From NCBI RefSeq assembly GCF_001887355.1, contig NZ_MPIN01000019.1, positions 10,167 through 50,711 on the forward strand: DNA of 40,545 nucleotides, read 5' to 3'. The notes beneath the pieces are model-generated. The model did not search any database and had not been told where the DNA came from. It saw only the letters and a list, made by a program, of their open reading frames with translations. Positions 8,540 through 38,720 of the stretch are shown piece by piece (within the stretch, counting starts at the first letter, position 1; the number at the start of each line of letters is the position of its first letter). Origin of the DNA: Cystobacter ferrugineus. GTDB lineage: Bacteria; Myxococcota; Myxococcia; Myxococcales; Myxococcaceae. A program made the position numbers and the translations under genes.

Positions 8540-9148
8540 ATGTCCGAGCCCGAGATCTCCGCTCCCCAGCGCTCCGGCGCCTTCTGTGCCCAGCATGCCG
8601 ATCAGCTCGCCGCCACCTTGTGCAACCGGTGCGGCAACTACGCCTGTGAGCAGTGCTTCCGGGTCGCGTACGATCGGCAGGACTACTGCACGGCGTGCCT
8701 GCCTCGCATCCAACCTCCCCTCGCCGGACGCGGTGCCCGCTTCGCCGCGGTCGCCGTGGACCAGGTCGCCCTGATCGCGCCGATCTTCGTGTGCATGCTC
8801 CTCGGCATCCTGCTGTCGAACGGCACCGGCACCGGCCTGACCATGCTCGGGTTGGGCATGCTGGGCGCCCTGGGCGTCGTGGGCTACCAGCTCTATCTGC
8901 TCGCCACCGTGGGACAGAGCCTGGGCAAGCGCACGATGGGCATCAAGGTGGTGCGTACCGACGGCACCCCCGTGGACCTCGCCCGGCTCATCTTCCTGCG
9001 CAACGTGGTGCCGGCGATCATCGGCATGTTCACCTGGAACCTCTTCAACCTCGTCGACACGCTCTGCATCTTCACCGAGCAGCGCCGCTGCCTTCACGAC
9101 CACATCGCGGACACCCAGGTGATCGTCGTGAACGAGTCCGGCACCTGA
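8540..9148 (+). CDS. RDD-family membrane protein with N-terminal zinc finger
   Basis: Protein of 202 aa from ATG 8540, chosen because GGTGGGG lies just upstream; GTG 8504 and ATG 8528 are alternatives. The N-terminus carries a B-box-like cluster of eight Cys/His ligands (FCAQH, LCNRCGNYACEQC, YCTACL), so zinc binding is likely. Then follows an RDD domain: RGARFAAVAVDQ, hydrophobic segments around VALIAPIFVCMLLGILL and LGLGMLGALGVVGYQLYLLA, the conserved GQSLGKRTMGIKVV stretch and a C-terminal RRCLHDHIADTQV. RDD proteins are integral membrane proteins of largely unknown function; zinc-finger fusions of this type are common in myxobacteria. It converges on the hydrolase gene with a 19-bp gap. 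Confidence 0.85.
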   Translation: MSEPEISAPQRSGAFCAQHADQLAATLCNRCGNYACEQCFRVAYDRQDYCTACLPRIQPPLAGRGARFAAVAVDQVALIAPIFVCMLLGILLSNGTGTGLTMLGLGMLGALGVVGYQLYLLATVGQSLGKRTMGIKVVRTDGTPVDLARLIFLRNVVPAIIGMFTWNLFNLVDTLCIFTEQRRCLHDHIADTQVIVVNESGT

Positions 9149-9149
9149 G

Positions 9150-9178
9150 CGGCGCCGGCCCCGCGACTCACGGCGCCG
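9150..9178. terminator. Candidate bidirectional terminator between convergent genes
   Basis: CGGCGCCG at 9150-9157 and again at 9171-9178 is self-complementary and can form an 8-bp stem with a 13-base loop. It sits between the stops of the RDD gene (+) and the hydrolase gene (-), and its right arm lies inside the hydrolase 3' end. There is no T tract, as is common in GC-rich genomes. Confidence 0.4.
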
Positions 9179-10085
9179 GGACGAGGGTGCGCTGGAAGAA
9201 CTCCACCACGGCCCGCCGCGACTCCCGGGCCGACCCGGGCGAGGGCGCGATGTCCACCAGCCCTCCCTGACCCTGGTGCGCGTAGGGATCGCTCACCTGG
9301 ATGGCCGACTCCAGCCGATCCCACCCGTGCGTGGCCCCCTCGTACATCTTCAAGGACAGGCTCGCGCGGTCCATGGGCGACAGGCTCTCGAGCAGCGTCT
9401 GGCACGAGTCGGGCGCGTCGTACACGTCGGCCGTGCCCGCCTGGAGGAAGACGGGCGCGCCGGTGAGGTCACCAAACTCGTAGCCGGGCACGCGGTTGTA
9501 GACCCAGCACACCGGATAGAGGGGTGCATGGGCCACGAAGCGCTGTCCCGGCTCGGCCCCCGCGGCGTACTTCCGGGTCGCCGTCAGCATGGACATCACC
9601 CCGCCCCAGGAGAACCCCATGATGCCGATGCGCGCGCCATCGATGGCCGGATGCGCGGACAGGAAGCGCAGGGCGCCGTGGGCATCGGGCAGCGTCTCGG
9701 AGACGGCCCGGGGCCTGCCCTCCGCGCCACCGGAGAGGCCTCGGGCGGACCACATGTCGATCTCCAACGTGGCGATGCCCGCCTCGTTCAGCGCCCGCGC
9801 GTAATAGCTCCCCCGGCTGTCCACCCCGCCCGAGCCGTGGGCAATCACCACCGCGGGCAGCTTCCCCGAGGCGCTCCGGGGCAGGCGCAACTGGCCCGCC
9901 ACCTGGAGCGGAGCCGGCGTGCCGAGCGCCGGAAAGGAGACGTAAGCCGACGTGGCCACCGGCGTCTGGATGGCCTCGTCCGTGGGAGAGGGATCCAGCT
10001 CCGGCGCGGGCGGCGCGCAGCCGCACACGAAGAGCGCGAGCGACAGCCGCACGGCCCACGGCCTCACGACGGGCATCTTCATCAT
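9168..10085 (-). CDS. Alpha/beta-hydrolase lipoprotein (dienelactone hydrolase-like)
   Basis: Protein of 305 aa. The start at 10085 gives a lipoprotein signal (MMKMPVVRPWAVRLSLALF, then VCGC with the lipobox Cys) and has GGGAG about seven bases upstream. The mature part is an alpha/beta-hydrolase: oxyanion region VVIAHGSGGVDSRG, nucleophile elbow GFSWGG, an acid-bearing AGTADVYDAPDSC segment and catalytic His in YEGATHGWDRLES. This matches the dienelactone hydrolase-like group (PF01738 type), secreted or outer-envelope esterases of unknown substrate. A start at 10169 would place 28 extra residues before the signal and is unlikely. It lies 100 bp downstream of the receiver-GGDEF gene on the same strand and may be co-transcribed. 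Confidence 0.87.
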   Translation of the reverse strand: MMKMPVVRPWAVRLSLALFVCGCAPPAPELDPSPTDEAIQTPVATSAYVSFPALGTPAPLQVAGQLRLPRSASGKLPAVVIAHGSGGVDSRGSYYARALNEAGIATLEIDMWSARGLSGGAEGRPRAVSETLPDAHGALRFLSAHPAIDGARIGIMGFSWGGVMSMLTATRKYAAGAEPGQRFVAHAPLYPVCWVYNRVPGYEFGDLTGAPVFLQAGTADVYDAPDSCQTLLESLSPMDRASLSLKMYEGATHGWDRLESAIQVSDPYAHQGQGGLVDIAPSPGSARESRRAVVEFFQRTLVPAP

Positions 10086-10185
10086 CTGGGGCTCCCGGGG
10101 AGTAGGGAGCGGGACATTGAGTACGCCCTCCCCGGGCGACAACCGTGCTCCCCCCGGCCGTGTCGACAACCGGGCGGAGCGGCCT

Positions 10186-25791: not shown

Positions 25792-25867
25792 CCGCTCGGG
25801 ATCCCGCGAAGCGGGAGGCTCTTGAAAAACCGGGCGGGGCGGTATGGTGTACTCCCTCGCACGCCAC

Positions 25868-26704
25868 ATGTCCGTGACCGTTCAACAGCTCGCTGCCCGG
25901 GACGCCGAAGCGCTGCGAGCGCTGCTCGCCCGGGATCCGTCCCACAACCTCTACCTGCTGGGACTGCTGGAGGAGTTCGGCCTGAACTCCGCCGAGGGGC
26001 AGGGCGGCTTCTCCTATTGGGGACGTTTCGATGGGCAGACGCTCACCGCGGCCGTGTTCGTGGGCGGCGCGGGAGGGCTGCTGGTGCCCTCGGCGAGCGA
26101 CGGCACGGCCACGGGGATGATCGCGGACGCGCTCGCCGATCGCGTGAGGCTCCGGGGCGCGGTGGGCGACAAGCCCGCGGTGGACGCGCTGGTGCGCAGC
26201 CTGTGCGTGGGCCGGCCGAAGCTGTCACGCACGTACCGGCTCTTCGCCGTCTCGGCGGATGACCTGGGCCCCTTCACCAACCCGCTGCTGCGGCTGGCGC
26301 GCGAGGAGGATCTGCCCCGCCTGATGCCGCTGGCGGCGGGGGCGATCCAGGAGCTGCACGAGCGGGACGCGCTCGCGGAGGATCCACACTTCGAGGCGCG
26401 GGTGGCACAGCGCGTGCGGGCGCGGCGCACCTACGTGCTGGAGGAGAACGGCGAGCTGGTGTTCAAGGTGGACATCGGCAGCCGCTCGCAATACGGCGCG
26501 GAGCTGGAGAACCTCTACACGCTGCCGTCGCAGCGCAAGAAGGGCCACGCCACGCTGTGCCTGGGGCAGATCTCCCGCTTCCTCCTCTCGTCGCTGCCGC
26601 GCCTGACCTTGCGCGTGGAGGAGAAGGACGAGTCCCTCGCGCGCATCGCCCGCCGGGTGGGCTACCACGCCGGCCGCACCCAGCGCGTGGTGCTGGTGGA
26701 TTAG
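25868..26704 (+). CDS. GNAT-family N-acetyltransferase
   Basis: Protein of 278 aa. The N-terminal half is a degenerate GNAT-like module (LLARDPSHNLYLLGLLEEFG, a signature seen in many such two-domain proteins). The C-terminal half has the catalytic GNAT layout: RLAREEDLPRLMPLA, VFKVDIGSRSQYGAELENLYT, then the acetyl-CoA loop region QRKKGHATLCLGQISRFLL and VGYHAGRTQRVVLV. Substrate unknown. ATG 25868 is preferred because TATGGT upstream looks like a -10 box; ATG 25844 would add eight residues and have GGGCGGGG nearby. It stands alone between gluQ and the low-GC island. Confidence 0.85.
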   Translation: MSVTVQQLAARDAEALRALLARDPSHNLYLLGLLEEFGLNSAEGQGGFSYWGRFDGQTLTAAVFVGGAGGLLVPSASDGTATGMIADALADRVRLRGAVGDKPAVDALVRSLCVGRPKLSRTYRLFAVSADDLGPFTNPLLRLAREEDLPRLMPLAAGAIQELHERDALAEDPHFEARVAQRVRARRTYVLEENGELVFKVDIGSRSQYGAELENLYTLPSQRKKGHATLCLGQISRFLLSSLPRLTLRVEEKDESLARIARRVGYHAGRTQRVVLVD

Positions 26705-27084: not shown

Positions 27085-27933
27085 GTGAGCGACCATTCCA
27101 AGATCGAGTGGACGGATGCGACGTGGAACCCGGTAAGGGGCTGCACGAAGATCAGTCCAGGCTGCAAACACTGTTACGCGGAGACGTTCGCCGAGCGATT
27201 CCGAGGAGTGCCCGGGCACCCCTATGAGCAGGGCTTCGACTTGCGGTTGGTGCCCGAAAAACTGGCGGAGCCCCTTCGCTGGAGGTCGCCGAAGTGCATC
27301 TTCGTCAATTCGATGAGCGACCTCTTCCACACGGACATTCCTGTTGACTACATCGTCGCGGTGGCGCGAGTGATGGCGCTGGCGAACTGGCACACCTACC
27401 AGGTACTGACGAAGCGCTCCGAACGGATGAGGGAACTGCTGCGTGGCGAATTGGCGTTCGCCGCCCAGTTGCCACATATCTGGTGGGGCGTCAGCGTAGA
27501 GGATCGCCGCTACGGAGTACCCCGCATTGAGCACCTGCGTGAAGCACCCGCTCGGGTCCGGTTCCTCTCGGTAGAGCCTCTGCTCGATGATCTGGGCCTG
27601 CTGGATCTGTCCGGCATCCACTGGGTCATCGTGGGTGGCGAAAGCGGCGCAGGAGCGAGACCCCTGCACAGGGAGTGGGTCGCATCTCTCCGGGATCAAT
27701 GCGCTGAGGCCGGAGTGGCGTTCTTTTTCAAGCAATGGGGTGGTGTGCGCAAGAGCAAGACGGGCCGTCTACTCGATGGACTGACACATGATGAGCTTCC
27801 TCATCGAGTCGTCATGCCGAGCCCTCTCGAAGCACAGCGGCAACAAGCACTGGCGCAAGCAGAAGCTCTCTCACAAGCGTGGCAGGCGCGGCTCCAAAAC
27901 CTCCAAGAGGATGCTCGGACCGCGCAGGCATGA
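27085..27933 (+). CDS. Three-Cys-motif protein, phage Gp37/Gp68 (DUF5131) family
   Basis: Protein of 282 aa beginning with GTG; AGGTGAGG sits just upstream. The family signature is clear: IEWTDATWNPVRGC followed by C27 and C30 in SPGCKHCYAE, giving C20-X6-C27-X2-C30, a radical-SAM-like iron-sulfur motif with unusual spacing. Further family blocks: IFVNSMSDLFH, YQVLTKRSERM, WWGVSVED, RFLSVEPLL, WVIVGGESGAGARP and FFFKQWGG. Found in phages, plasmids and bacterial islands. Chemistry and substrate are unknown. The partner tcmP starts 40 bp downstream. The gene is visibly less GC-rich than its neighbours, which suggests transfer. The C-terminal tail (about 250-282) is Gln/Ala-rich and likely helical. 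Confidence 0.92.
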   Translation: MSDHSKIEWTDATWNPVRGCTKISPGCKHCYAETFAERFRGVPGHPYEQGFDLRLVPEKLAEPLRWRSPKCIFVNSMSDLFHTDIPVDYIVAVARVMALANWHTYQVLTKRSERMRELLRGELAFAAQLPHIWWGVSVEDRRYGVPRIEHLREAPARVRFLSVEPLLDDLGLLDLSGIHWVIVGGESGAGARPLHREWVASLRDQCAEAGVAFFFKQWGGVRKSKTGRLLDGLTHDELPHRVVMPSPLEAQRQQALAQAEALSQAWQARLQNLQEDARTAQA

Positions 27934-27973
27934 CGCGGCATGTGATGGCTGAATAGAGTCGAGGGAGGGGGGG

Positions 27974-29305
27974 ATGATGATTCCCAGAGAGTACAAAGGG
28001 CGTGAGCAGACCTATCTGAAGCACAGGGTTCTTTCGGAATATCTGGCTTCATGGGCCCAGAAAATAGCATCAACAGTCCGACAAGGGCAGTCTGTCAAGC
28101 TCTGGTACGTCGACTGCTTCGCGGGTCCCTGGCAGGCCAGGGATGAAGCACTTGATGACACTTCCGTCGCCATCGGGCTCAATGTCTTGGAGCAGACGGC
28201 TGAAACCTGGAGGAAAAAGGGCTTCCGCATCGAACTCGCGGCCATCTTCGTCGAAAAAGACAAGAAATCGTTCAGTCATCTGGTCGAGTTCCTTGACGGG
28301 AGAGAAGGAAAGCACGTTGAAGTCACAGCGCTTCATGGTGAATTTGGAAGCTTCGTCGACGAAATCAATCGCCTCATTCAGGGCGATCCCGCCTTCTTGT
28401 TCGTGGATCCAACAGGATGGAAGGGAGTGGGAATGAGGAATATCGCGCCGCTCGCCAGCATGCGAAGGCGTGACGTTCTCATCAATGTCATGTTCAACCA
28501 CCTCAACCGGTTCAAGGATGACAGGCGGTCCTTCCTGCGAGACCAGATGAGAGACTTCTTTGGATTGAGCGACAGCGACATTCCACCCGCGCTACCAGAA
28601 GATGAACTTTTCGCCCTCTATCGTCAGCAACTCCAGCAGAAGGGGGGCGTTCGGTTCGCGGCGGACTTGATCATTCCTCACGCCGAGCACGAACGAACCT
28701 GGTTTCGGCTGGTCATTGGCGGGCATCATCCGGCAGTCGTGGAGCTATTTCGAGACGTAGAGAAGCGGATCTGTGGTGCGGAAGCTGGAGAAGTACGCGA
28801 TGAAGCGCGAGGCCGTGGCCAGTTCAAATTGGAACTGGGTTTGAACCACGTCGACTCGACGTATGCACGGCGCCATGATGCGGATCTCCAAGCCGCGCCT
28901 GATGACTTGCTGAAGTTGCTGGAACGAAGCCCACCTCAATCCTTCAGGGAGTTGTGGCCACGAATTCTGGCTACGCGACACATCACCAAGGCCGATTTGA
29001 GCAAGGAGGTGTGGAAACTCCATGCCCAATCCAAGTTGGTGCTCCACAACCTCGAGAAGGGACAGCGAACCGCCAGGGATGAAAATATACTCAGTCTGCC
29101 GGCAGAGCGCCTCTCCCAAGGAGCAACACCTCTGGCCCTGTGCCGATGCGGACGGGGGACGACGGAACACTTGAGGACGAACAGCCGAGCGTGTCTGCCC
29201 TGGGTGGACACCCAGGCGAACGTGAAGCACATCCACCCGCTCGCCCGCCCCGACGGGATGCAGGAGTACGACCTGTCGAGGCAGCCAACATCCCAAGGGA
29301 GATGA
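27974..29305 (+). CDS. tcmP: Three-Cys-motif partner protein TcmP
   Basis: Protein of 443 aa. It matches the TcmP family, named for its constant pairing with Gp37/Gp68-type proteins. A methyltransferase-like fold is suggested by WYVDCFAGPW (about residue 45) and AIFVEKDKKSF, then FLFVDPTGWKGVGM (about 145) and INVMFNHLNRF. The usual GFAGPG reads CFAGPW here. After a central helical region, a winged-helix-like segment (ITKADLSKEVWKLHAQSKLVLH) follows. GAGGGAGGGGGG just before the ATG is a strong ribosome site. The last 60 residues are Arg/Thr/Pro-rich and unlike the rest, possibly a readthrough caused by a late frameshift. Low GC like its partner. Function unknown; a DNA- or RNA-directed role in defence or mobile elements is inference. 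Confidence 0.9.
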   Translation: MMIPREYKGREQTYLKHRVLSEYLASWAQKIASTVRQGQSVKLWYVDCFAGPWQARDEALDDTSVAIGLNVLEQTAETWRKKGFRIELAAIFVEKDKKSFSHLVEFLDGREGKHVEVTALHGEFGSFVDEINRLIQGDPAFLFVDPTGWKGVGMRNIAPLASMRRRDVLINVMFNHLNRFKDDRRSFLRDQMRDFFGLSDSDIPPALPEDELFALYRQQLQQKGGVRFAADLIIPHAEHERTWFRLVIGGHHPAVVELFRDVEKRICGAEAGEVRDEARGRGQFKLELGLNHVDSTYARRHDADLQAAPDDLLKLLERSPPQSFRELWPRILATRHITKADLSKEVWKLHAQSKLVLHNLEKGQRTARDENILSLPAERLSQGATPLALCRCGRGTTEHLRTNSRACLPWVDTQANVKHIHPLARPDGMQEYDLSRQPTSQGR

Positions 29306-29438: not shown

Positions 29439-29963
29439 ATGGCGGACACCAATCAGAGCGGGATGGACATCAACCCGGAGTCGCAGAGCACGGAGGAGCC
29501 GGGTGAGACGCGACGCGCCTCGGGAGTCGACCTACAAGCCCGGCGCGAGCAGCGCCGGGAAACCAGGCGCAACCAGACCTACAAGGCCTTCCTGCGCAAC
29601 CTCATGGTCATCGGGTCGATGAACGAGGAAGACGCGGAGCGCGCCGCGATCTCGGTGCTCTGCGTGCTGGAGCAGCGGCTCTTCGGCGAGGAGGCGGCCC
29701 ACCTGGAAGCCCAGCTCCCCGGCAAGCTTCAGGAGCTGCTGATCCGCTGCGAGCGGCACATGGGCAAGCCCGCCACCAAGTTCGGCAAGGACGGCTTCAT
29801 CCAGATGGTGGCGCAGGACCTGGACGTGGAACCCCTGGAGGCCGAGCGGAAGATCCGCGCCGTCTTCTCCGCGGTGAGGGATCAGGTCTCCGAGGGAGAG
29901 ATCGACGACGTCATCGGCCAGCTCCCCTCCGACCTGCGCGAGCTGTGGCACCTCACCATGTGA
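29439..29963 (+). CDS. DUF2267 domain protein
   Basis: Protein of 174 aa. The start is fixed by GGGAGG about six bases before ATG 29439. An acidic, disordered N-terminus (residues 1-45) leads into a DUF2267-type helical domain: AERAAISVLCVLEQRLFGEEAAHLEAQLPG, a second repeat-like half and a final VIGQLPSDLRELW. DUF2267 proteins have two such halves and are of unknown function; stress association is suspected for some. High GC is restored here, so it probably belongs to the host backbone. Convergent with the phosphatase gene, 31-bp gap. Confidence 0.83.
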   Translation: MADTNQSGMDINPESQSTEEPGETRRASGVDLQARREQRRETRRNQTYKAFLRNLMVIGSMNEEDAERAAISVLCVLEQRLFGEEAAHLEAQLPGKLQELLIRCERHMGKPATKFGKDGFIQMVAQDLDVEPLEAERKIRAVFSAVRDQVSEGEIDDVIGQLPSDLRELWHLTM

Positions 29964-29994: not shown

Positions 29995-30516
29995 TCAATC
30001 GCGCCCTTCCGAGGTGCGGCCGCGTGGGGGTTCGTTGGGCTTGAAGAGGGAGCGCCCCGGGGTCGCCATCCACGCCAGCGAGAAGTGCTTGCCCTGGGGG
30101 TGGAGCGCCAGCACGGCCCCCTTGCGCAGCTTGCCGGGCAGCTCCTCCTGCTCCAGGGCGCGCGCCCCCGCGACGGCGAGCGAGGGGTTGTGCCCCACGA
30201 GCATCCAGCCCGGGCCCAGCTCGCGCGCCATGTGGAGGATGCGCTTGGGCGCCTGGGGACGGGGCCGCAGCTCGGGGAGGACCTCCACGTGCGCGAGCCC
30301 GAAGGCCTCGGCGAGGATCTCCGCGGTCTGGATGGCGCGCACCAGGGGGCTCGTGGCGATCCCCACCATGGGCGTGAGGCGTGCGAGCTTGCGCGCGTGG
30401 GCACGGAAGGTGGCCCTGCCCTCGAGCGTCAGGGGACGGCTCTCGTCGCCCAGGCGGTGGTCACCCTCGGCCTCGGCGTGGCGGACGAACATCACGGGCA
30501 TCTGGTGGGAAGACAT
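29995..30516 (-). CDS. sixA: SixA-like phosphohistidine phosphatase
   Basis: Protein of 173 aa of the histidine phosphatase (phosphoglycerate mutase-like) superfamily. The catalytic MFVRHAEAEGD motif near the N-terminus, the second-Arg region ATSPLVRAIQTAEILAEAF and the second catalytic His in WMLVGHNPSLA are all present. SixA removes phosphate from histidine of Hpt domains or PtsH-like proteins; size and motifs fit, but the substrate is unproven. I chose ATG 30516; ATG 30501 is possible and 30555 unlikely. Divergent from miaE. Confidence 0.85.
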   Translation of the reverse strand: MSSHQMPVMFVRHAEAEGDHRLGDESRPLTLEGRATFRAHARKLARLTPMVGIATSPLVRAIQTAEILAEAFGLAHVEVLPELRPRPQAPKRILHMARELGPGWMLVGHNPSLAVAGARALEQEELPGKLRKGAVLALHPQGKHFSLAWMATPGRSLFKPNEPPRGRTSEGRD

Positions 30517-30644
30517 GGCGGGAGTGTCCCTAAAGCCCCGAAGGCCCAGGGACAAGCAACGTTCCCGCGTCGGGACCCCCGGGGTGGCGCGACACGATCG
30601 TGACGGTGGAACCCCGCGTCCGGCGGGCGGTAGAGTCCGCGCCC

Positions 30645-31268
30645 ATGTCCCGTCTCACGCCTGACCGCCGTCCCCTCTCGGGTGAGGGTCCCGTCATCCT
30701 CCGGGTGCCCAGTGATCCGCGCTGGCTGCCCCTCGCGCTCGAGCGCTTCGACGAGGTGCTGGTGGACCACGCCCACTGCGAGAAGAAGGCCGCGGCCAAC
30801 GCGCTCTCGATGATCCAGGTGTACCCGGATCTGCCGGGCCTGCCCGCGCAGATGGCGCGGCTGGCGCGCGAGGAGAGCGCGCACCTGGCGCGGGTGCTGG
30901 AGCTGATGGCCGCCCGCGGCCTGACCTTGAACCGGGACGCGGGTGACCCCTACGCCCAGGGACTGCAGAAGGCCGTGCGCACCTCGCACGAGGGCCGCAA
31001 GGTGGACCGGCTGCTCGTGGCCGCCGTCATCGAGGCCCGCTCCTGCGAGCGCCTGTCGCTGCTCGCCGAGGGACTCGAGGAGGAATCGCTGCGCCGCTTC
31101 TACGCGGAGCTCGCCCAGTCCGAGGATGGCCACCAGTCGCTCTTCTACCGGCTGGCCGTCACGGCGGCGGGAGGCGACGAGACCGCGGTGCGCACCCGCC
31201 TGGAGGAGCTGCTCGTCCTCGAGGCCGAGGTGCTCCAGCGCATCGGCGTGCGCGCCGCCATCCACTGA
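30645..31268 (+). CDS. miaE: tRNA-(ms2io6A37) hydroxylase MiaE
   Basis: Protein of 207 aa. It is a di-iron monooxygenase that hydroxylates the isopentenyl group of ms2i6A at tRNA position 37. The iron ligands fall in the usual helices: DHAHCEKKAAANAL, REESAHLARVL, VIEARSCERLSLL and SEDGHQSLF. The length is normal. ATG 30645 begins the family-like sequence. TAGAGT at 30631-30636 ends eight bases before it with no Shine-Dalgarno, so the message may be leaderless. A weak hairpin (GGCCG/CGGCC) lies shortly after the stop. Confidence 0.95.
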   Translation: MSRLTPDRRPLSGEGPVILRVPSDPRWLPLALERFDEVLVDHAHCEKKAAANALSMIQVYPDLPGLPAQMARLAREESAHLARVLELMAARGLTLNRDAGDPYAQGLQKAVRTSHEGRKVDRLLVAAVIEARSCERLSLLAEGLEEESLRRFYAELAQSEDGHQSLFYRLAVTAAGGDETAVRTRLEELLVLEAEVLQRIGVRAAIH

Positions 31269-31393: not shown

Positions 31394-33631
31394 CTACCGG
31401 GAGTAGCCCGCGGACACGGACACCCCTCCGCTCGGCCACAGAAGCTGAATCGGAGCCAGGTGGTTGCTATCAGTGCCATCCCCCAACTGGCCGTAGTAGT
31501 TGTCGCCCCAGGCCCACATGGTACCGTCGGAGCGCACTGCCAGCGAATGGTTGCGGCCTCCCCACACGGCCCTCCATCCGCTCAACCCTTGCAGTTGCAC
31601 TGGCACCAGGCGTTTGCTCGTGGTGCCATCCCCCAACTGGCCGTAGGAGTTGTCGCCCCAGGCCCACACGGTACCGTCCGAGCGCACCGCCAGCGAATGG
31701 GATTTGCCCGCCTCCACGGCCACCACCCCGCTCAACCCCTGCACCCGCACCGGAGTCAATTGGTTGATGAGCGTGCCATCGCTACCCCAGGCCCATACGG
31801 TGCCGTCGGAGCGTATCGCCAGCACATGGAAGTCGCCCGCCGCCACGGACACCACTCCGCTCAGCCCCTGTACCTGCCCCGGCACCGGGCGGTCGATCTT
31901 GGTTCCATCCCCCAGTCTGCCAGAGTAGTTGGCGCCCCAGGCCCATACGGTGCCGTCAGAACGTAAGCCCAGTGAATAGCAGTAGCCCGCCGCCACAGTC
32001 ACCACCCCGCTCAACCCTTGCAGTTGCACCGGCACCAGGCGGTCGGTCGTGGTGCCATCCCCCAGTTGGCCATTGTAGTTGTCGCCCCAGGCCCACACGG
32101 TTCCGTCCGAGCGCACCGCCAGCGAATGGTAGTCGCCCGCCGCCACGGCCACCACTTCGTTCAGCCCCTGCACCTGCCTCGGCGCCGAGCGACTGGTCGT
32201 GGTGCCATCCCCTAGTTGACCGAAGGAGTTGTTACCCCAGCCCCAGACGGTGCCGTCGGAGCGCACCGCCAGCGAATGGTAGTCGCCCGCCGCCACGGAC
32301 ACCGCTCCGCTCAGCCCCTGCACCTGCCTTGGCTCCGAACTGGCGCCCCTGACGTCATCCCCCCGTTGACCGGCGGAGTTGTAGCCCCAGGCCCACACGG
32401 TGCCGTCGGAGTGCACCGCCAGCGAGTGCAAGGCGCCCGCCGCCGCGGCCACGACGCTGTTCATTCCATTCACTCCCTGCAACCACACCGACACCCGAAA
32501 CAATCGGTGGAGAGTCGTGCCATCCCCCAGTTGGCCATTGTAGTTGGCGCCCCAGGCCCACACGGTGCCATCGGAGCGCACCGCCAGCGAATGGGCGTAG
32601 CCCGCCGCCACGGCCACCCCTCCGCTCAGCCCCTGCACGTGCACCGGCACCGAAGTGTCCGTCTTGGTGCCGTCCCCCAGTTGGCCGTATCCGTTGTAGC
32701 CCAAGGCCCACACGGTGCCGTTCTTCTTCAGGGCCAGTGAGTGGCCGTAGCCCGCTGCCACGGACACCACGTCGCTCAGCCCCGGCACCTGAAGCGGGTC
32801 ATGGCCCCCCGTGTCATTCCCCAGCTGGCCGTAGGAGTTGTCGCCCCAAGCCCAGAGGGTGCCATCGGAGCGCACCGCCAGCCAGTGCCAGGGGCCCGCG
32901 GCGATGGCCACCACCCCGCTCAACCCCTGCACCTGCACCAGATTGTCGCCGTGGTTCCAGACCCACACGGTACCGTCGGAGCGCAAAGCCAGCGGAGAGT
33001 AGTAGCCCGCCGCCACGGCCACCACCCCGCTCAACCCCTGCACCTGCACTGGCACCGAATGGCCGGTCGTGGAGCCATCCCCCGGTTGGCCGATGGAGAT
33101 GTCGCCCCAGCACCAGACGGTGCCATCGTCGCGCAGCGCCACCGAGAATTCACCCCCCGCGGCTACGGCCAGCATCCCACTCAACCCCTGCACCTGCACC
33201 GGAACCAGGCGGTCGCTCAGGGTGCCATCCCCCAACTGACCGAGACGGTTTCTACCCCAGGCCCACACGGTGCCGTCGGAGCGTACCGCCAGCGAATGGT
33301 ATAACCCCCCAGCCAGGGACACCACGCCACTCAGCCCCTGCACCTGCACGGGTACCGAGCGGTTGCTCGTGGTGCCATCCCCGAGCTGGCCCGAGTCGTT
33401 GGCGCCTGTTGCCCAGACGGTGCCATCTGGGAGTCCCACCAGCGAATGAGACTCGCCCGCGGCCACGACCACTCCTCCGCCCAGCCCCGGCACCTGCACG
33501 GGTGTCGAGCGGCTGCTCGTGGCGCCATCCCCTGCCCTTCCTGAATCCTCGGGCTGACCACACCCCACCACCAGCACCGCGAGCCAGACTCCCAGCAGTC
33601 TGGTCATCCATCGTCCTGCATTGATTTGCAT
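31394..33631 (-). CDS. RCC1-repeat lipoprotein A, 14 blades
   Basis: Protein of 745 aa. The N-terminus (MQINAGRWMTRLLGVWLAVL, then VVGC) is a lipoprotein signal with the lipobox Cys at 24, so it should be anchored at the cell surface or periplasm. The rest is a tandem array of 14 RCC1 repeats of about 49 residues with consensus VVAVAAGxxHSLAVRSDGTV followed by WAWGxNxxGQLGDGT and VPVQVQGLSG; repeat 4 is shortened. Fourteen blades would fit two seven-bladed propellers. It ends ten residues into a further repeat. GGAG seven bases before the ATG. Surface binding is plausible but unproven. Paralogue of RCC1 protein B. Confidence 0.92.
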   Translation of the reverse strand: MQINAGRWMTRLLGVWLAVLVVGCGQPEDSGRAGDGATSSRSTPVQVPGLGGGVVVAAGESHSLVGLPDGTVWATGANDSGQLGDGTTSNRSVPVQVQGLSGVVSLAGGLYHSLAVRSDGTVWAWGRNRLGQLGDGTLSDRLVPVQVQGLSGMLAVAAGGEFSVALRDDGTVWCWGDISIGQPGDGSTTGHSVPVQVQGLSGVVAVAAGYYSPLALRSDGTVWVWNHGDNLVQVQGLSGVVAIAAGPWHWLAVRSDGTLWAWGDNSYGQLGNDTGGHDPLQVPGLSDVVSVAAGYGHSLALKKNGTVWALGYNGYGQLGDGTKTDTSVPVHVQGLSGGVAVAAGYAHSLAVRSDGTVWAWGANYNGQLGDGTTLHRLFRVSVWLQGVNGMNSVVAAAAGALHSLAVHSDGTVWAWGYNSAGQRGDDVRGASSEPRQVQGLSGAVSVAAGDYHSLAVRSDGTVWGWGNNSFGQLGDGTTTSRSAPRQVQGLNEVVAVAAGDYHSLAVRSDGTVWAWGDNYNGQLGDGTTTDRLVPVQLQGLSGVVTVAAGYCYSLGLRSDGTVWAWGANYSGRLGDGTKIDRPVPGQVQGLSGVVSVAAGDFHVLAIRSDGTVWAWGSDGTLINQLTPVRVQGLSGVVAVEAGKSHSLAVRSDGTVWAWGDNSYGQLGDGTTSKRLVPVQLQGLSGWRAVWGGRNHSLAVRSDGTMWAWGDNYYGQLGDGTDSNHLAPIQLLWPSGGVSVSAGYSR
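31427..33475 (-). repeat. Tandem RCC1 repeats in gene A (14 units)
   Basis: Fourteen imperfect units, mostly 147-153 bp, in coding phase; unit 4 is about 111 bp. Diversity is concentrated at the NxxG loop and at the DGT to PVQV loop, while HSLAVRSDGTVWAWG is nearly constant. Confidence 0.9.
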
Positions 33632-36455: not shown

Positions 36456-38720
36456 TCACGGGGCCATGGCCTCACCAGCCAACGGACACCACTCCGCGCT
36501 CGGCCCCTGCACATGCACCGGCGCCGAACGGGGGCTCGAAGTGCCCTCCCCCAACTGACCGGGGATGTTAAAGCCCCAAGACCACATGGAGTTGTCGGAG
36601 CGCACCGCCAGCGAATGGGCGTAGCCCGCCGCCACGAACACCATTCCGCTCGGCCCCTGCACCTGCACCGGAACCAAACGGGGGCTCGAAGAGCCATCCC
36701 CCAACGAGCCGTAGGCATTGTAGCCCCAGGCCCACAGGGTACCGTCAGAGCGCATCGCTAGCGAATGGTAGTATCCGGCTGCCACGGCCACCACCCCGCT
36801 CAACCCCTGCACCTGCATCGGAACCAATCGTTTGACATTCGTAGTCGTGCCATCCCCCAACGCGCCGTAGCGGTTGTCGCCCCAGGCCCACACGGTGCCG
36901 TCCGAGCGCACCGCCAGCGAGTGGGTTTCGCCCGCGGCCACGGCCACCACTTCGCTCAGCACCTGCACCGGAACCAATTGGTTGCTCGTCGTGCCATCCC
37001 CCAACTGACCGTAGACGTTGTAGCCCCAGGCCCACAGGGTACCGTCAGAGCGCACCGCCAGCGAATGGGAGTACCCAGCGGCCACGGCCACCACCCCACT
37101 CAACCCCTGCACCTGCACCGGAACCAATCGTTCGCTCGTGGTGCCATCCCCCAGTCGGCCATAGGAGTTGGCCCCCCAAGCCCACACGGTGCCGTCGGAG
37201 CGCACCGCCAGCGAATGGGAGGAGCCCGCCTCCACGGCCACCACTTCGCTCAATCCCTGCACCTGCACCGGAAGCCATCGGTCGTTCCAGCTCGTGCCGT
37301 CCCCCAGTTGGCCGGAGAGGTTGGCACCCCAGGCCCACACGGTGCCATCGGAGCGCACCGCCAGCGAATGGCGTTCGCCCGCCGCCACGGCCACCACTCC
37401 GCTCAGCCCCTGCACCTGCACCGGAATCAATCGGTTTTTGGCCGTGCCATCTCCCAACTGGCCGTAGACGGTGTTGTGACCCGAGGCCCAGACGGTGCCG
37501 TCGGAGCGCACCGCCAGCGAATGGGCGTAACCCGCCGCCACGGCCACCACGCTGTTCAGTCCCTGCGTTCCCACCCGCACGGGCAGCGTACGGTCGGCCG
37601 TGGTGAGGTCCCCCAGTTGACCATTGGAGTTGGCGCCCCAGACCCAGACGGTGCCGTCGGAGAGCACCGCCAGCGAATGGGCGTAGCCCGCCGCCACGGC
37701 CACCACTCCGCGCAGCACGCGCACCTGCCCTGTCACCGAACGGTTGGTGGTGGTGTTATCCCCCAACTGGCCGAACTCGTTGTAGCCCAAGGCCCACACG
37801 GTACCGTCGTTCTTCAGGGCCAGTGAGTGGCCGTAGCCCGCTGCCACGGACACCACTCCGCTCAGCCCCCGCACCTGAACCATGTTTCGGCTCCCGGTGT
37901 CATTCCCCAGTTGGCCGTAGGTGTTGTCGCCCCAGGCCCACACGGTGCCATCGGAGCGCACCGCCAGCACGTGATCGGGGCCCGCGGCCACGGCCACCAC
38001 CCCGCTCAGCACCTGCGCCTGCACCGGACGGTTGCCACCACCGCCCCAGGTCCACACGGTGCCGTCGGTGCGCAACGCCACCGGATAGGAGCGGCCCGTG
38101 GCCACGGCCACCACCCCGCTCACCCCCTGCACCTGCACTGGCACCGAGCGGTCGGTCCGGGTGCCGTCCCCCAGTTGGCCGCTGGAGTTGTCACCCCAGG
38201 CCCACACGGTGCCATCGTCACGCAGGGCCAACGAGTAGTCACCGCCCGCGGCTACGGCCAGCATCCCACTCAACCCCTGCACCTGCACCGGCACCGAGCT
38301 GTTGCTCGTGGTGCCATCCCCCAACTGGCCATGGGAGTTGGAGCCCCAGGCCCACACGGTGCCGTCGGAGCGTACCGCCAGCGAATGGAACAACCCCCCA
38401 GACAGGGACACCGCTCCACTCAGCCCCTGCACCCGCACGGGCACCGAGCGGTTGCTCGTGGTGCCATCCCCGAGCTGGCCCGAGCCGTTGGCGCCTGTTG
38501 CCCAGACGGTGCCATCCGGGCGCCCTACCAGCGAATGAGACTCGCCCGAAGCCACGACCACTCCTCCGGCCTGCCCCGGCACCTGCACGGGTGCCGAGCG
38601 GTTGCTCGTGGCGCCATCCCCTGCCCTTCCTGAATCCTCGATGGGCTGACCACACCCCACCACCAGCACCGCGATGACTCCCAGCAGTCTGCTCATCCAT
38701 CGTTCCGCATTGATTTGCAT
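36456..38720 (-). CDS. RCC1-repeat lipoprotein B, 14 blades
   Basis: Protein of 754 aa, paralogue of RCC1 protein A. Lipoprotein signal MQINAERWMSRLLGVIAVLV, then VGC with the Cys at 23. Fourteen RCC1 repeats in the same register as A: the short repeat 4, the ALGYN repeat 6 and the NDTG repeat 5 match one to one, so the copies arose by whole-gene duplication and then diverged. The last 13 residues (EWCPLAGEAMAP) differ from the repeat; removing one C would restore GVVSVG for a few residues before a stop. The C-terminus is therefore slightly frameshifted but ends at the same place as in A. GGAG before the ATG, as in A. Confidence 0.92.
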   Translation of the reverse strand: MQINAERWMSRLLGVIAVLVVGCGQPIEDSGRAGDGATSNRSAPVQVPGQAGGVVVASGESHSLVGRPDGTVWATGANGSGQLGDGTTSNRSVPVRVQGLSGAVSLSGGLFHSLAVRSDGTVWAWGSNSHGQLGDGTTSNSSVPVQVQGLSGMLAVAAGGDYSLALRDDGTVWAWGDNSSGQLGDGTRTDRSVPVQVQGVSGVVAVATGRSYPVALRTDGTVWTWGGGGNRPVQAQVLSGVVAVAAGPDHVLAVRSDGTVWAWGDNTYGQLGNDTGSRNMVQVRGLSGVVSVAAGYGHSLALKNDGTVWALGYNEFGQLGDNTTTNRSVTGQVRVLRGVVAVAAGYAHSLAVLSDGTVWVWGANSNGQLGDLTTADRTLPVRVGTQGLNSVVAVAAGYAHSLAVRSDGTVWASGHNTVYGQLGDGTAKNRLIPVQVQGLSGVVAVAAGERHSLAVRSDGTVWAWGANLSGQLGDGTSWNDRWLPVQVQGLSEVVAVEAGSSHSLAVRSDGTVWAWGANSYGRLGDGTTSERLVPVQVQGLSGVVAVAAGYSHSLAVRSDGTLWAWGYNVYGQLGDGTTSNQLVPVQVLSEVVAVAAGETHSLAVRSDGTVWAWGDNRYGALGDGTTTNVKRLVPMQVQGLSGVVAVAAGYYHSLAMRSDGTLWAWGYNAYGSLGDGSSSPRLVPVQVQGPSGMVFVAAGYAHSLAVRSDNSMWSWGFNIPGQLGEGTSSPRSAPVHVQGPSAEWCPLAGEAMAP
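36498..38564 (-). repeat. Tandem RCC1 repeats in gene B (14 units)
   Basis: Fourteen units in coding phase. Units 1-8 correspond one to one with those of gene A. Long stretches of near-identical DNA within and between the arrays make recombination likely. Confidence 0.9.

Follow-up and report, generated by a model that had tools for sequence, protein, structure and literature searches.

A foreign DUF5131–TcmP gene pair in Cystobacter ferrugineus and the insertion of its relatives as bare two-gene units

The stretch of Cystobacter ferrugineus DNA analysed here, hereafter the window (40,545 nucleotides; G000:C19:10167-50711 of a 12.05 Mb genome), carries two adjacent plus-strand genes. DUF5131, of the phage Gp37/Gp68 family, lies upstream of TcmP, the three-Cys-motif partner protein, with 40 bp between them. 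A preliminary description made from the sequence alone had proposed a two-gene cassette, which our analysis confirms, as both open reading frames (ORFs) have the expected extent and spacing and both products exceed their family cut-offs. DUF5131 matches PF07505 with E 4.8e-99 and 331.2 bits (curated cut-off 28.9), whereas TcmP reaches 161.9 bits against TIGR04474 (curated cut-off 53). The three-Cys neighbour by which TIGR04474 is also recognised is DUF5131 itself, with the motif C20-X6-C27-X2-C30. This motif and the CFAGPW and FVDPTG motifs earlier pointed out in TcmP were all found. The pair is thus a confirmed, foreign and accessory couple of a radical-SAM-like protein and an RlmJ-like methyltransferase, of a known candidate kind. 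New are the likely enzymatic identity of TcmP, the exchange of partners and direct evidence of bare two-gene insertion in the family. The features of the pair are as follows.

27085..27933, plus strand: DUF5131 (phage Gp37/Gp68 family) gene, 282 aa, GTG start; predicted radical-SAM-like triosephosphate isomerase (TIM) barrel
27142..27174, plus strand: CX6CX2C motif, Cys20-Cys27-Cys30, with the same spacing in 106/106 aligned rows
27974..29305, plus strand: TcmP (three-Cys-motif partner) gene, 443 aa; predicted RlmJ-like class I methyltransferase with a C-terminal winged helix-turn-helix (wHTH)-like part
28019..28021, plus strand: Lys16 codon of TcmP, proposed counterpart of the RlmJ catalytic Lys18; 108/109 rows
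28112..28126, plus strand: TcmP motif I, D47-C-F-A-G51, S-adenosylmethionine (AdoMet, SAM)-site motif; D47 in 108/109 rows, G51 in 105/109
28406..28417, plus strand: TcmP motif IV, D145-P-T-G148, in place of the RlmJ DPPY; D145 in 109/109 rows, G148 in 101/109
28874..29041, plus strand: wHTH-like part of TcmP, residues 301-356; PF22560 24.9 bits, below the cut-off of 27; helices confidently modelled
29135..29302, plus strand: TcmP tail, residues 388-443; predicted disordered, predicted local distance difference test (pLDDT) <50

The pair differs from its surroundings in composition. As had been seen in the sequence, its GC content is lower than on both flanks, 0.55-0.61 against about 0.70-0.73. 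At third codon positions (GC3) the value is 0.71 for DUF5131 and 0.63 for TcmP (up to position 29128), whereas 26 other window genes range from 0.83 to 0.97. Scored against the codon usage of the window, only DUF5131 and TcmP are negative, whereas the 26 other genes lie between +0.22 and +0.65; the 28 genes scored are the pair and 26 of the 28 others called, omitting the cut first gene and one 110-aa ORF. The low GC is a trait of the family, with pairs below their flanks at 85 of 93 loci with enough flank (25/27 in Myxococcota and 60/66 elsewhere). Two large lipoprotein-like minus-strand genes with RCC1-like repeats (recognised by eye; 31394-33631 and 36459-38696) have a GC3 of 0.83, under that of the other host genes. 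The strong ribosome sites earlier ascribed to both genes were judged by eye, and the description fits TcmP, which is preceded by the stretch GAGGGAGG, but not DUF5131, whose site is weaker.

The model of DUF5131 (AlphaFold2, pLDDT 94.9) suggests that the protein folds like radical SAM enzymes, combining their barrel with an N-terminal Cys cluster. VIA-align, used as a second look at 1000 Foldseek chains, ranked spore photoproduct lyase (SPL) first, in six rows of Z 11.9-12.2; the best superposition (Z 12.2) covers 194 aligned residues at 3.0 Å. Viperins follow (viperin-like Z 11.6). Rows 1-37 of this list are radical SAM enzymes, some of which we take to be such from their titles, and the first other row has Z 8.6. 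Cys20, Cys27 and Cys30, aligned across 106 rows (105 of 120 non-redundant relatives and the window), are the presumed [4Fe-4S] ligands. The barrel with an N-terminal three-Cys motif is thus shared with SPL and other radical SAM enzymes, but DUF5131 has CX6CX2C, where the usual radical SAM spacing is CX3CX2C, and no sequence-profile match to SPL.

Several results speak against this kinship. Foldseek alone found no match at E 0.001, the best being dehydroquinate dehydratase (E 4.5e-3), and the window protein has no PF04055 match at E 0.1. Comparison with SPL by hhalign, using seven Myxococcaceae SPL-family proteins and two alignments of low diversity, gave a probability of 1.6, and common ancestry with SPL is accordingly not supported by sequence. 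The window protein has no SPL-family NCBIfam match at E 0.1, and the DUF5131 profile no match to PDB sequences at E 10. A possible bridge to the radical SAM superfamily is the domain fused to TcmP at locus L307, which matches PF04055 with E 4e-10, DUF5131 with E 1.1e-4 (below cut-off) and DUF5131 in hhalign with a probability of 43. DUF5131 also matches NCBIfam TIGR04471 (radical SAM mobile pair protein A), whose name likewise makes it one member of a mobile pair, over residues 15-217 with E 1.2e-19, but at 70.7 bits against a cut-off of 355 it is not a member.

TcmP appears to be a remote relative of RlmJ, the 23S rRNA m6A2030 methyltransferase (PF04378), because of its modelled fold, its profile similarity and a conserved Lys and Asp. 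In the AlphaFold model (pLDDT 86.2) the confident fold is limited to about residues 1-387. The top ten structural neighbours belong to the RlmJ family (Z 16.1-16.7; next row 13.8), and the best fit aligns 212 residues at 3.3 Å with Z 16.7. A hidden Markov model of 109 TcmPs, searched against PDB sequences, has RlmJ-family chains as its first six matches (E 3e-4 to 0.022), and hhalign with nine RlmJ-family proteins gives a probability of 96.3 (E 1.8e-9). In the PDB profile search, motif I aligns with YLDTHAGAG of RlmJ, and both this search and hhalign align the Asp-Pro of motif IV with the Asp-Pro of the RlmJ family. The catalytic Lys18 and Asp164 of RlmJ have candidate counterparts in K16 (108/109) and D145 (109/109); Lys16, which lies outside both alignments, would correspond to Lys18 by context. 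The part of the RlmJ study consulted gives Y4, H6, K18 and D164 as the essential residues (PMC3814359). The radical-SAM-like and methyltransferase-like readings of the preliminary description are therefore supported at the fold level, and that of TcmP by sequence profile too.

Set against the RlmJ kinship are the lack of a PF04378 match in the window TcmP at E 0.1 and the lack of DPPY in motif IV of all 109 rows, which mostly have D[PQ]xG (DPYG 24, DPFG 23, DPTG 16, DPKG 11, DQYG 10, others). N6-adenine methylation is thus not assured. However, the loss of DPPY need not abolish activity, since the DPPY Tyr of RlmJ does not stack on the base, according to the same part of that study (PMC3814359). 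TcmP differs from RlmJ further in its added wHTH-like part, its pairing with a radical-SAM-like protein, its high divergence and its mobility. The tail of the window TcmP is most likely a read-through into resident DNA, because it is modelled as disordered and positions 29189-29265 are 82% identical to island DNA of the sister genome G032; positions 29189-29246 are 76% identical to that of another, G033, and neither genome has this TcmP. Among ten other aligned TcmPs, only that of L065 extends as far.

DUF5131 and TcmP stay together whatever their order or strand. Profile searches of 195 Myxococcota genomes found TIGR04474 in 30 and PF07505 in 62. The 36 TcmP rows represent 34 places after merging two second pieces, and DUF5131 lies within 1.5 kb at 30 of these, in both orders and divergently; of the four unpaired places, three are at contig edges and one is a match below cut-off. 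Conversely, the 88 DUF5131 rows reduce to 73 places (15 fragments or weak rows dropped), of which 30 are paired with TcmP. In a wider sample, ranked by DUF5131 match, a TcmP-like neighbour lies within 1.5 kb at 67 of the 80 best of 583 confirmed genome-contig loci (47 with DUF5131 first, 18 with TcmP first, 2 on opposite strands) and at 41 of the 80 best of 592 viral loci (13, 16 and 12, respectively). Same-strand genome pairs are tightly spaced, with 60/65 at most 30 bp apart or overlapping by ORF ends. L191, counted among the genome pairs, has both profiles in one ORF, a DUF5131-TcmP fusion, and L307 encodes a TcmP-Radical_SAM fusion, whose TcmP part has an hhalign probability of 99.5.

Some further occurrences were observed. 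One pair (G068:C2:59621-61552) is on the second of the two contigs of a genome; this contig, 147 kb long, may be a myxobacterial plasmid. The Pseudomonas aeruginosa plasmid NZ_CP124633.1 (L372) has two nearby TcmP genes in a conjugative element, adjoining a DEAD/DEAH helicase and DUF6094, with no DUF5131 in its (incomplete) gene table; they are comparable with the TcmP listed with the phage-defence gene hna in the part of a Sinorhizobium meliloti study consulted (PMC12445080). At five Acidobacteria loci (L132, L137, L139, L144 and L171), TcmP-DUF5131 stands behind a gene of about 516 aa, which by its matches would encode a carboxyl transferase; the upstream flanks are shared, and the loci represent either one old insertion or a recurrent site. 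Unpaired viral DUF5131 ORFs (L212-L291) are often longer, many of 300-420 aa.

Although they travel together, the partners appear from sequence comparison to have been exchanged often, if not at random. Over 88 pairs, from loci picked by DUF5131 similarity and hence an uneven sample, DUF5131 has a mean identity of 0.58 and TcmP one of 0.22. The TcmPs nearest to that of the window (49-52%; L160, L303, L185) sit with DUF5131s of 63-65%, whereas the six nearest DUF5131s (73-77%) sit with TcmPs of 18-29%. Both genes have the same nearest neighbour in only 17/88 pairs. TcmP subtype changes number at least 33 on the DUF5131 tree, against 38-50 in 200 shuffles and 6 on the TcmP tree itself; this count used 75/88 rows, 13 rows in subtypes of fewer than three being dropped. 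Strict co-divergence is thereby ruled out. The rank correlation of 0.046 makes the two genes look more independent than they are, since TcmP identities of 0.15-0.2 approach the floor of the alignment, and a Mantel r of 0.175, reached by 0/999 shuffles, shows that some co-inheritance remains.

These data bear on one alternative, that the two genes have nothing to do with phages and serve nucleic-acid repair or housekeeping RNA modification, DUF5131 acting on DNA damage like SPL and TcmP acting like an rRNA methyltransferase. The best structural neighbours are indeed a DNA-lesion repair enzyme and an rRNA methyltransferase, and solo DUF5131 genes are widespread in the myxobacterial genus g6, as in G016, which has no TcmP beside it. 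Yet the pair is patchy (TcmP in 30 of the 195 genomes), mobile and foreign in codon use, its partners re-assort, and divergence as strong as that of TcmP would not be favoured if the substrate were a fixed rRNA or lesion. We therefore consider this alternative rather unlikely.

Related pairs insert as bare two-gene units. The clearest case is L293 of genome G005, whose relative G002 (95% identical) has an empty site. Positions 5363-6899 of L293 align with 1-1537 of the G002 locus L378, and 8990-10099 with 1479-2588, which means that G002 has one copy of a 58-59 bp target and G005 two, one on each side of a 2,091-bp insert. Considering ORFs with an ATG start, of at least 50 aa and not mostly inside another, this insert encodes only TcmP (311 aa) and DUF5131 (252 aa). 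An empty site together with a target duplication, which we took as the mark of a stand-alone mobile unit, was found for the pair of G005 against G002 and not for the window pair.

Flank repeats are not restricted to this locus. Usable flanks were available for 88 pairs, chromosomal or on contigs; by blastn, 7 of these had direct repeats, whereas none of 88 single random spans did (p 0.007). Under stricter thresholds (at least 40 bp and 85% identity) the counts were 6/88 pairs and 6/880 random spans at the same loci (Fisher p 2.8e-4). The repeated pieces, named by eye, are the 3' ends of different genes.

L052 (G032): GNAT 3' end
L164: 3' end of a beta-propeller protein gene, 344 bp
L187: proA 3' end, 97 bp
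L293 (G005): 3' end of an inositol-monophosphatase-like gene, 58 bp
L147 and L162: hsdS-like pieces
L186: a repeat of only 27 bp (the seventh case)

At L052, a 76-bp stretch of the GNAT 3' end including the stop codon is duplicated (95% identical) on either side of the second pair of G032; this end is single in the window and in G033, where other cargo follows. Such repeats were seen at 0/9 solo DUF5131 genes and 1/36 viral pairs. In four inserts GC content is 0.52-0.59, against 0.63-0.70 in the flanks, and terminal inverted repeats were ruled out, the longest exact matches being 6-9 bp. The pair may move by att-like recombination with an integrase acting in trans, by single-crossover integration of a circle, or through decay of a larger element that keeps the pair. 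On plasmid pCAR1, the pair stands directly behind a site-specific integrase. More speculatively, and with distinctly less confidence than we attach to a role in defence (below), DUF5131-TcmP could be a minimal mobile element of 1.9-2.5 kb, without a recognisable recombinase or terminal inverted repeats, that inserts behind host genes with a 58-344 bp 3'-end duplication. Its enzymes would drive insertion themselves, or it would borrow an integrase in trans like a satellite, and the enzymes would earn their keep by modifying the nucleic acid of invaders, with the methyltransferase-like protein as an interchangeable, fast-diverging specificity subunit.

The site of the window pair is a variable island between a GNAT-like and a MiaE-like gene.

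25844..26704, plus strand: GNAT-like gene, weak GNAT matches below cut-offs; left boundary of the island at its stop codon
26736..26913, plus strand: nucleoside hydrolase gene remnants, mainly of the 3' end; the gene is intact in G032
29439..29963, plus strand: DUF2267 gene (PF10025, E 3e-33), right neighbour of the pair, in the island common to G032 and G033
29995..30555, minus strand: histidine phosphatase gene, SixA-like (below the SixA cut-off), in the shared island
30600..31268, plus strand: MiaE-like gene (PF06175, E 1.6e-41), right edge of the island

In four outgroup genomes (G034, G006, G003 and G002), MiaE lies directly behind GNAT, and their homology with the window stops at the GNAT stop codon and restarts at MiaE. 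The island beginning at this stop codon, with the DUF2267 and SixA-like genes, is common to the window, G032 and G033. Its remaining contents vary. In G033, the place of the pair is taken by a gene 92% identical in DNA to the Imm11 gene of G032. In G032, GNAT is followed by a different DUF5131-TcmP pair, an intact nucleoside hydrolase gene (IU_nuc_hydro, E 1.2e-63), an AHH-nuclease/Imm11 couple and a window-type DUF5131, which is 95% identical and at the same site, its TcmP gone except for tail DNA. The window pair is therefore accessory, with other cargo at its site in sister genomes. Since G032 carries this DUF5131 at the same site, the gene would have been there before the split of the two lineages, and its gain in the window lineage alone is ruled out; TcmP was either lost in G032 or joined later in the window lineage.

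For the pair of the window, neither direct repeats nor an empty site were found. Its island has a mosaic structure, with resident DNA on the right and the nucleoside hydrolase remnant on the left, whose pieces are 87-93% identical in DNA to L052 8009-8039, 8687-8776, 9000-9069, 11096-11149 and 11373-11460. Comparison with sister genomes, suggested earlier as a search for an empty site, thus showed GNAT followed directly by MiaE in the four outgroups but no clean empty site for this pair. The stretch behind TcmP was considered as a repeated cassette boundary and ruled out, because it occurs at this locus only, in 3/4 genomes of the genus.

That the genes descend vertically in the host, without transfer, and owe their composition to a local bias is hardly credible. 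The G032 copy of DUF5131 does predate the split of the two species, but no pair is present at the site in G033, G034, G002, G003 or G006 (a statement about the site, as G033, G034, G002 and G006 have other pairs elsewhere), both codon scores fall outside the range of the 26 other window genes, and pairs generally have a lower GC content than their flanks. Foreign codon use, the different site contents in sister genomes and the clean empty site with target duplication of a related pair together bear out the proposal of a transferred module. Synteny in all relatives, host-like codon use and the lack of any mobile or defence link, which had been named as findings that would contradict that proposal, were not what we observed.

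The AHH-nuclease/Imm11 couple of G032 forms another two-gene cassette, unrelated to DUF5131-TcmP but likewise flanked by a 3'-end copy, here a duplication of about 347 bp and about 99% identity of the nucleoside hydrolase 3' end (L052 8723-9069 and 11096-11442). In G033 (L053), the interval between GNAT and DUF2267 holds an Imm11-like gene without an AHH gene, possibly an orphan immunity gene, beside a 40-bp remnant of the nucleoside hydrolase 3' end. The presence of this couple at the same site also fits a toxin-antitoxin-like addiction pair kept by mobile elements, in which one enzyme damages a host RNA or nucleotide and the other reverses the damage, as do the small size, mobility and tight coupling of DUF5131-TcmP. 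This alternative is nevertheless improbable: both proteins resemble AdoMet enzymes rather than a toxin and an antitoxin, DUF5131 is intact after TcmP loss in G032, and the single-chain fusion at L191 exists.

A link to defence is drawn from neighbourhoods elsewhere and from the listing of both families as PADLOC candidates. PDC-M30 and PDC-M41 have the same two components (in M30, A is TcmP and B is DUF5131). The window DUF5131 matches PDC-M41B with E 5.2e-103 and PDC-M30B with E 3.5e-102; the window TcmP matches only weakly (PDC-M30A, E 1.4e-13, a distant relative; PDC-M41A, E 4.3e-6), in a comparison by E-value, apart from PADLOC's own thresholds. Around 27 Myxococcota pairs, 191 PADLOC models are matched by 128 genes, whereas 127 control genes match 39 (E 1e-15). 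The neighbours were taken nearest first under a residue limit, none above 1600 aa, and the controls came from 20 other stretches of eight such genomes. This excess is a trend and not a rate, because a single protein can match many models and no model is matched by more than 3 proteins. The 25 matches listed near Myxococcota pairs are to type I restriction-modification, MADS and a type II methyltransferase. In other phyla, 139 genes beside pairs match 78 models, in a set without its own control, and the 25 matches listed include MADS, restriction, AriA, IetA, BrxA and AbiEii, together with two PDC-M30A (TcmP-like). Individual pairs lie beside a type ISP restriction enzyme on Leptospira biflexa p74, beside hsdS-like pieces at L147 and L162 (by eye), and between integrase and immunity repressor in Gordonia phage Fairfaxidum, a serine integrase carrier.

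In the parts consulted, one study predicts PDC-M30 in 32/100 P. aeruginosa strains, of which 68.8% are phage-resistant, a correlation only (PMC10855318), and another has the S. meliloti TcmP gene SMa2243 in the same expression table as hna (SMa2245; PMC12445080). The parts consulted present PDC systems as unvalidated predictions and do not describe the folds or the bare-unit mobility. Among the matches listed in searches of the literature on TcmP, DUF5131, Gp37/Gp68 and PDC, preprints excluded, there was no experimental study of the pair or of phage protection by it.

Defence is the likeliest function proposed for the pair. We read DUF5131-TcmP as a two-gene mobile cassette whose two enzymes modify nucleic acid and most probably serve as an anti-phage (anti-mobile-element) system, and give this reading as a whole about an even chance. 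A number of observations count against it. Control genes matched PADLOC models too (including PD-T4-6, mad6, BrxHI and DpdF), and the counts are of models, several per protein. No defence gene was found among the neighbours of the window pair by family-profile annotation, which lists GluQRS, GNAT-like, DUF2267, SixA-like and MiaE, and a defence island at this locus is ruled out. DUF5131 occurs without TcmP at 43/73 Myxococcota places, among them those of the solo gene in 14/16 genomes of genus g6 (70-74% identical to that of the window; in G016 at L070 7892-8755). The orphan DUF5131 of G032 is intact after the deletion of TcmP, with a nonsynonymous to synonymous substitution ratio (dN/dS) of 0.095 against the window copy, a value that cannot separate selection before TcmP loss from selection after it. 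The check suggested in the preliminary description, for enrichment beside known defence genes, shows a trend elsewhere, where model matches are commoner near pairs, but no defence gene among the annotated window neighbours, and the proposal of defence or counter-defence finds no direct support in this strain.

In an anti-phage system of this kind, both proteins would act on one target. TcmP, the fast-evolving partner, would bind the target nucleic acid through its RlmJ-like pocket and wHTH, and would present or methylate a base, probably adenine or a neighbour. DUF5131, the conserved partner, could then cleave AdoMet at its iron-sulfur cluster and carry out radical chemistry on that base. Modified phage nucleic acid, or host RNA modified on infection, would stop the phage, and the pair would be kept because it pays, spreading by insertion behind host genes.

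The closest competitor, still unlikely, though less so than a housekeeping role, is counter-defence or self-protection, whereby phages and plasmids modify their own nucleic acid against host nucleases and the window copy is a relic. At E 1e-20, DUF5131 turns up in 127 records of phages and 321 of plasmids, the best viral loci are paired in 41/80 cases, and DNA methyltransferases occur near unpaired viral DUF5131 genes (up to 5/78 neighbours per PHROG family, against 2/82 at paired loci). However, the pair of the Gordonia phage (one record) is not in a base-hypermodification cluster, and repressors and integrases are found beside paired viral loci, though at most 3/82 neighbours belong to any one family. 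At 78% for the nearest genome contig and 75% for the nearest viral one, similarity barely differs, so that neither is the clear source.

DUF5131 is widespread, and no known reaction was found for either this family or TcmP. The likely RlmJ and radical SAM kinships turn this into a concrete question, namely which base is modified, by which AdoMet chemistry, and whether TcmP needs Lys16 and Asp145. From the clean two-gene insertion it seems that the pair by itself forms a unit of transfer, and it may therefore suffice for its function. Should the unit turn out to move without its own recombinase, this would pose a further puzzle. Viperin is a single-gene defence, whereas DUF5131-TcmP is a pair; if the anti-phage reading is true, the cassette would represent a radical-SAM immune system different from the viperins and having a partner that can be exchanged.

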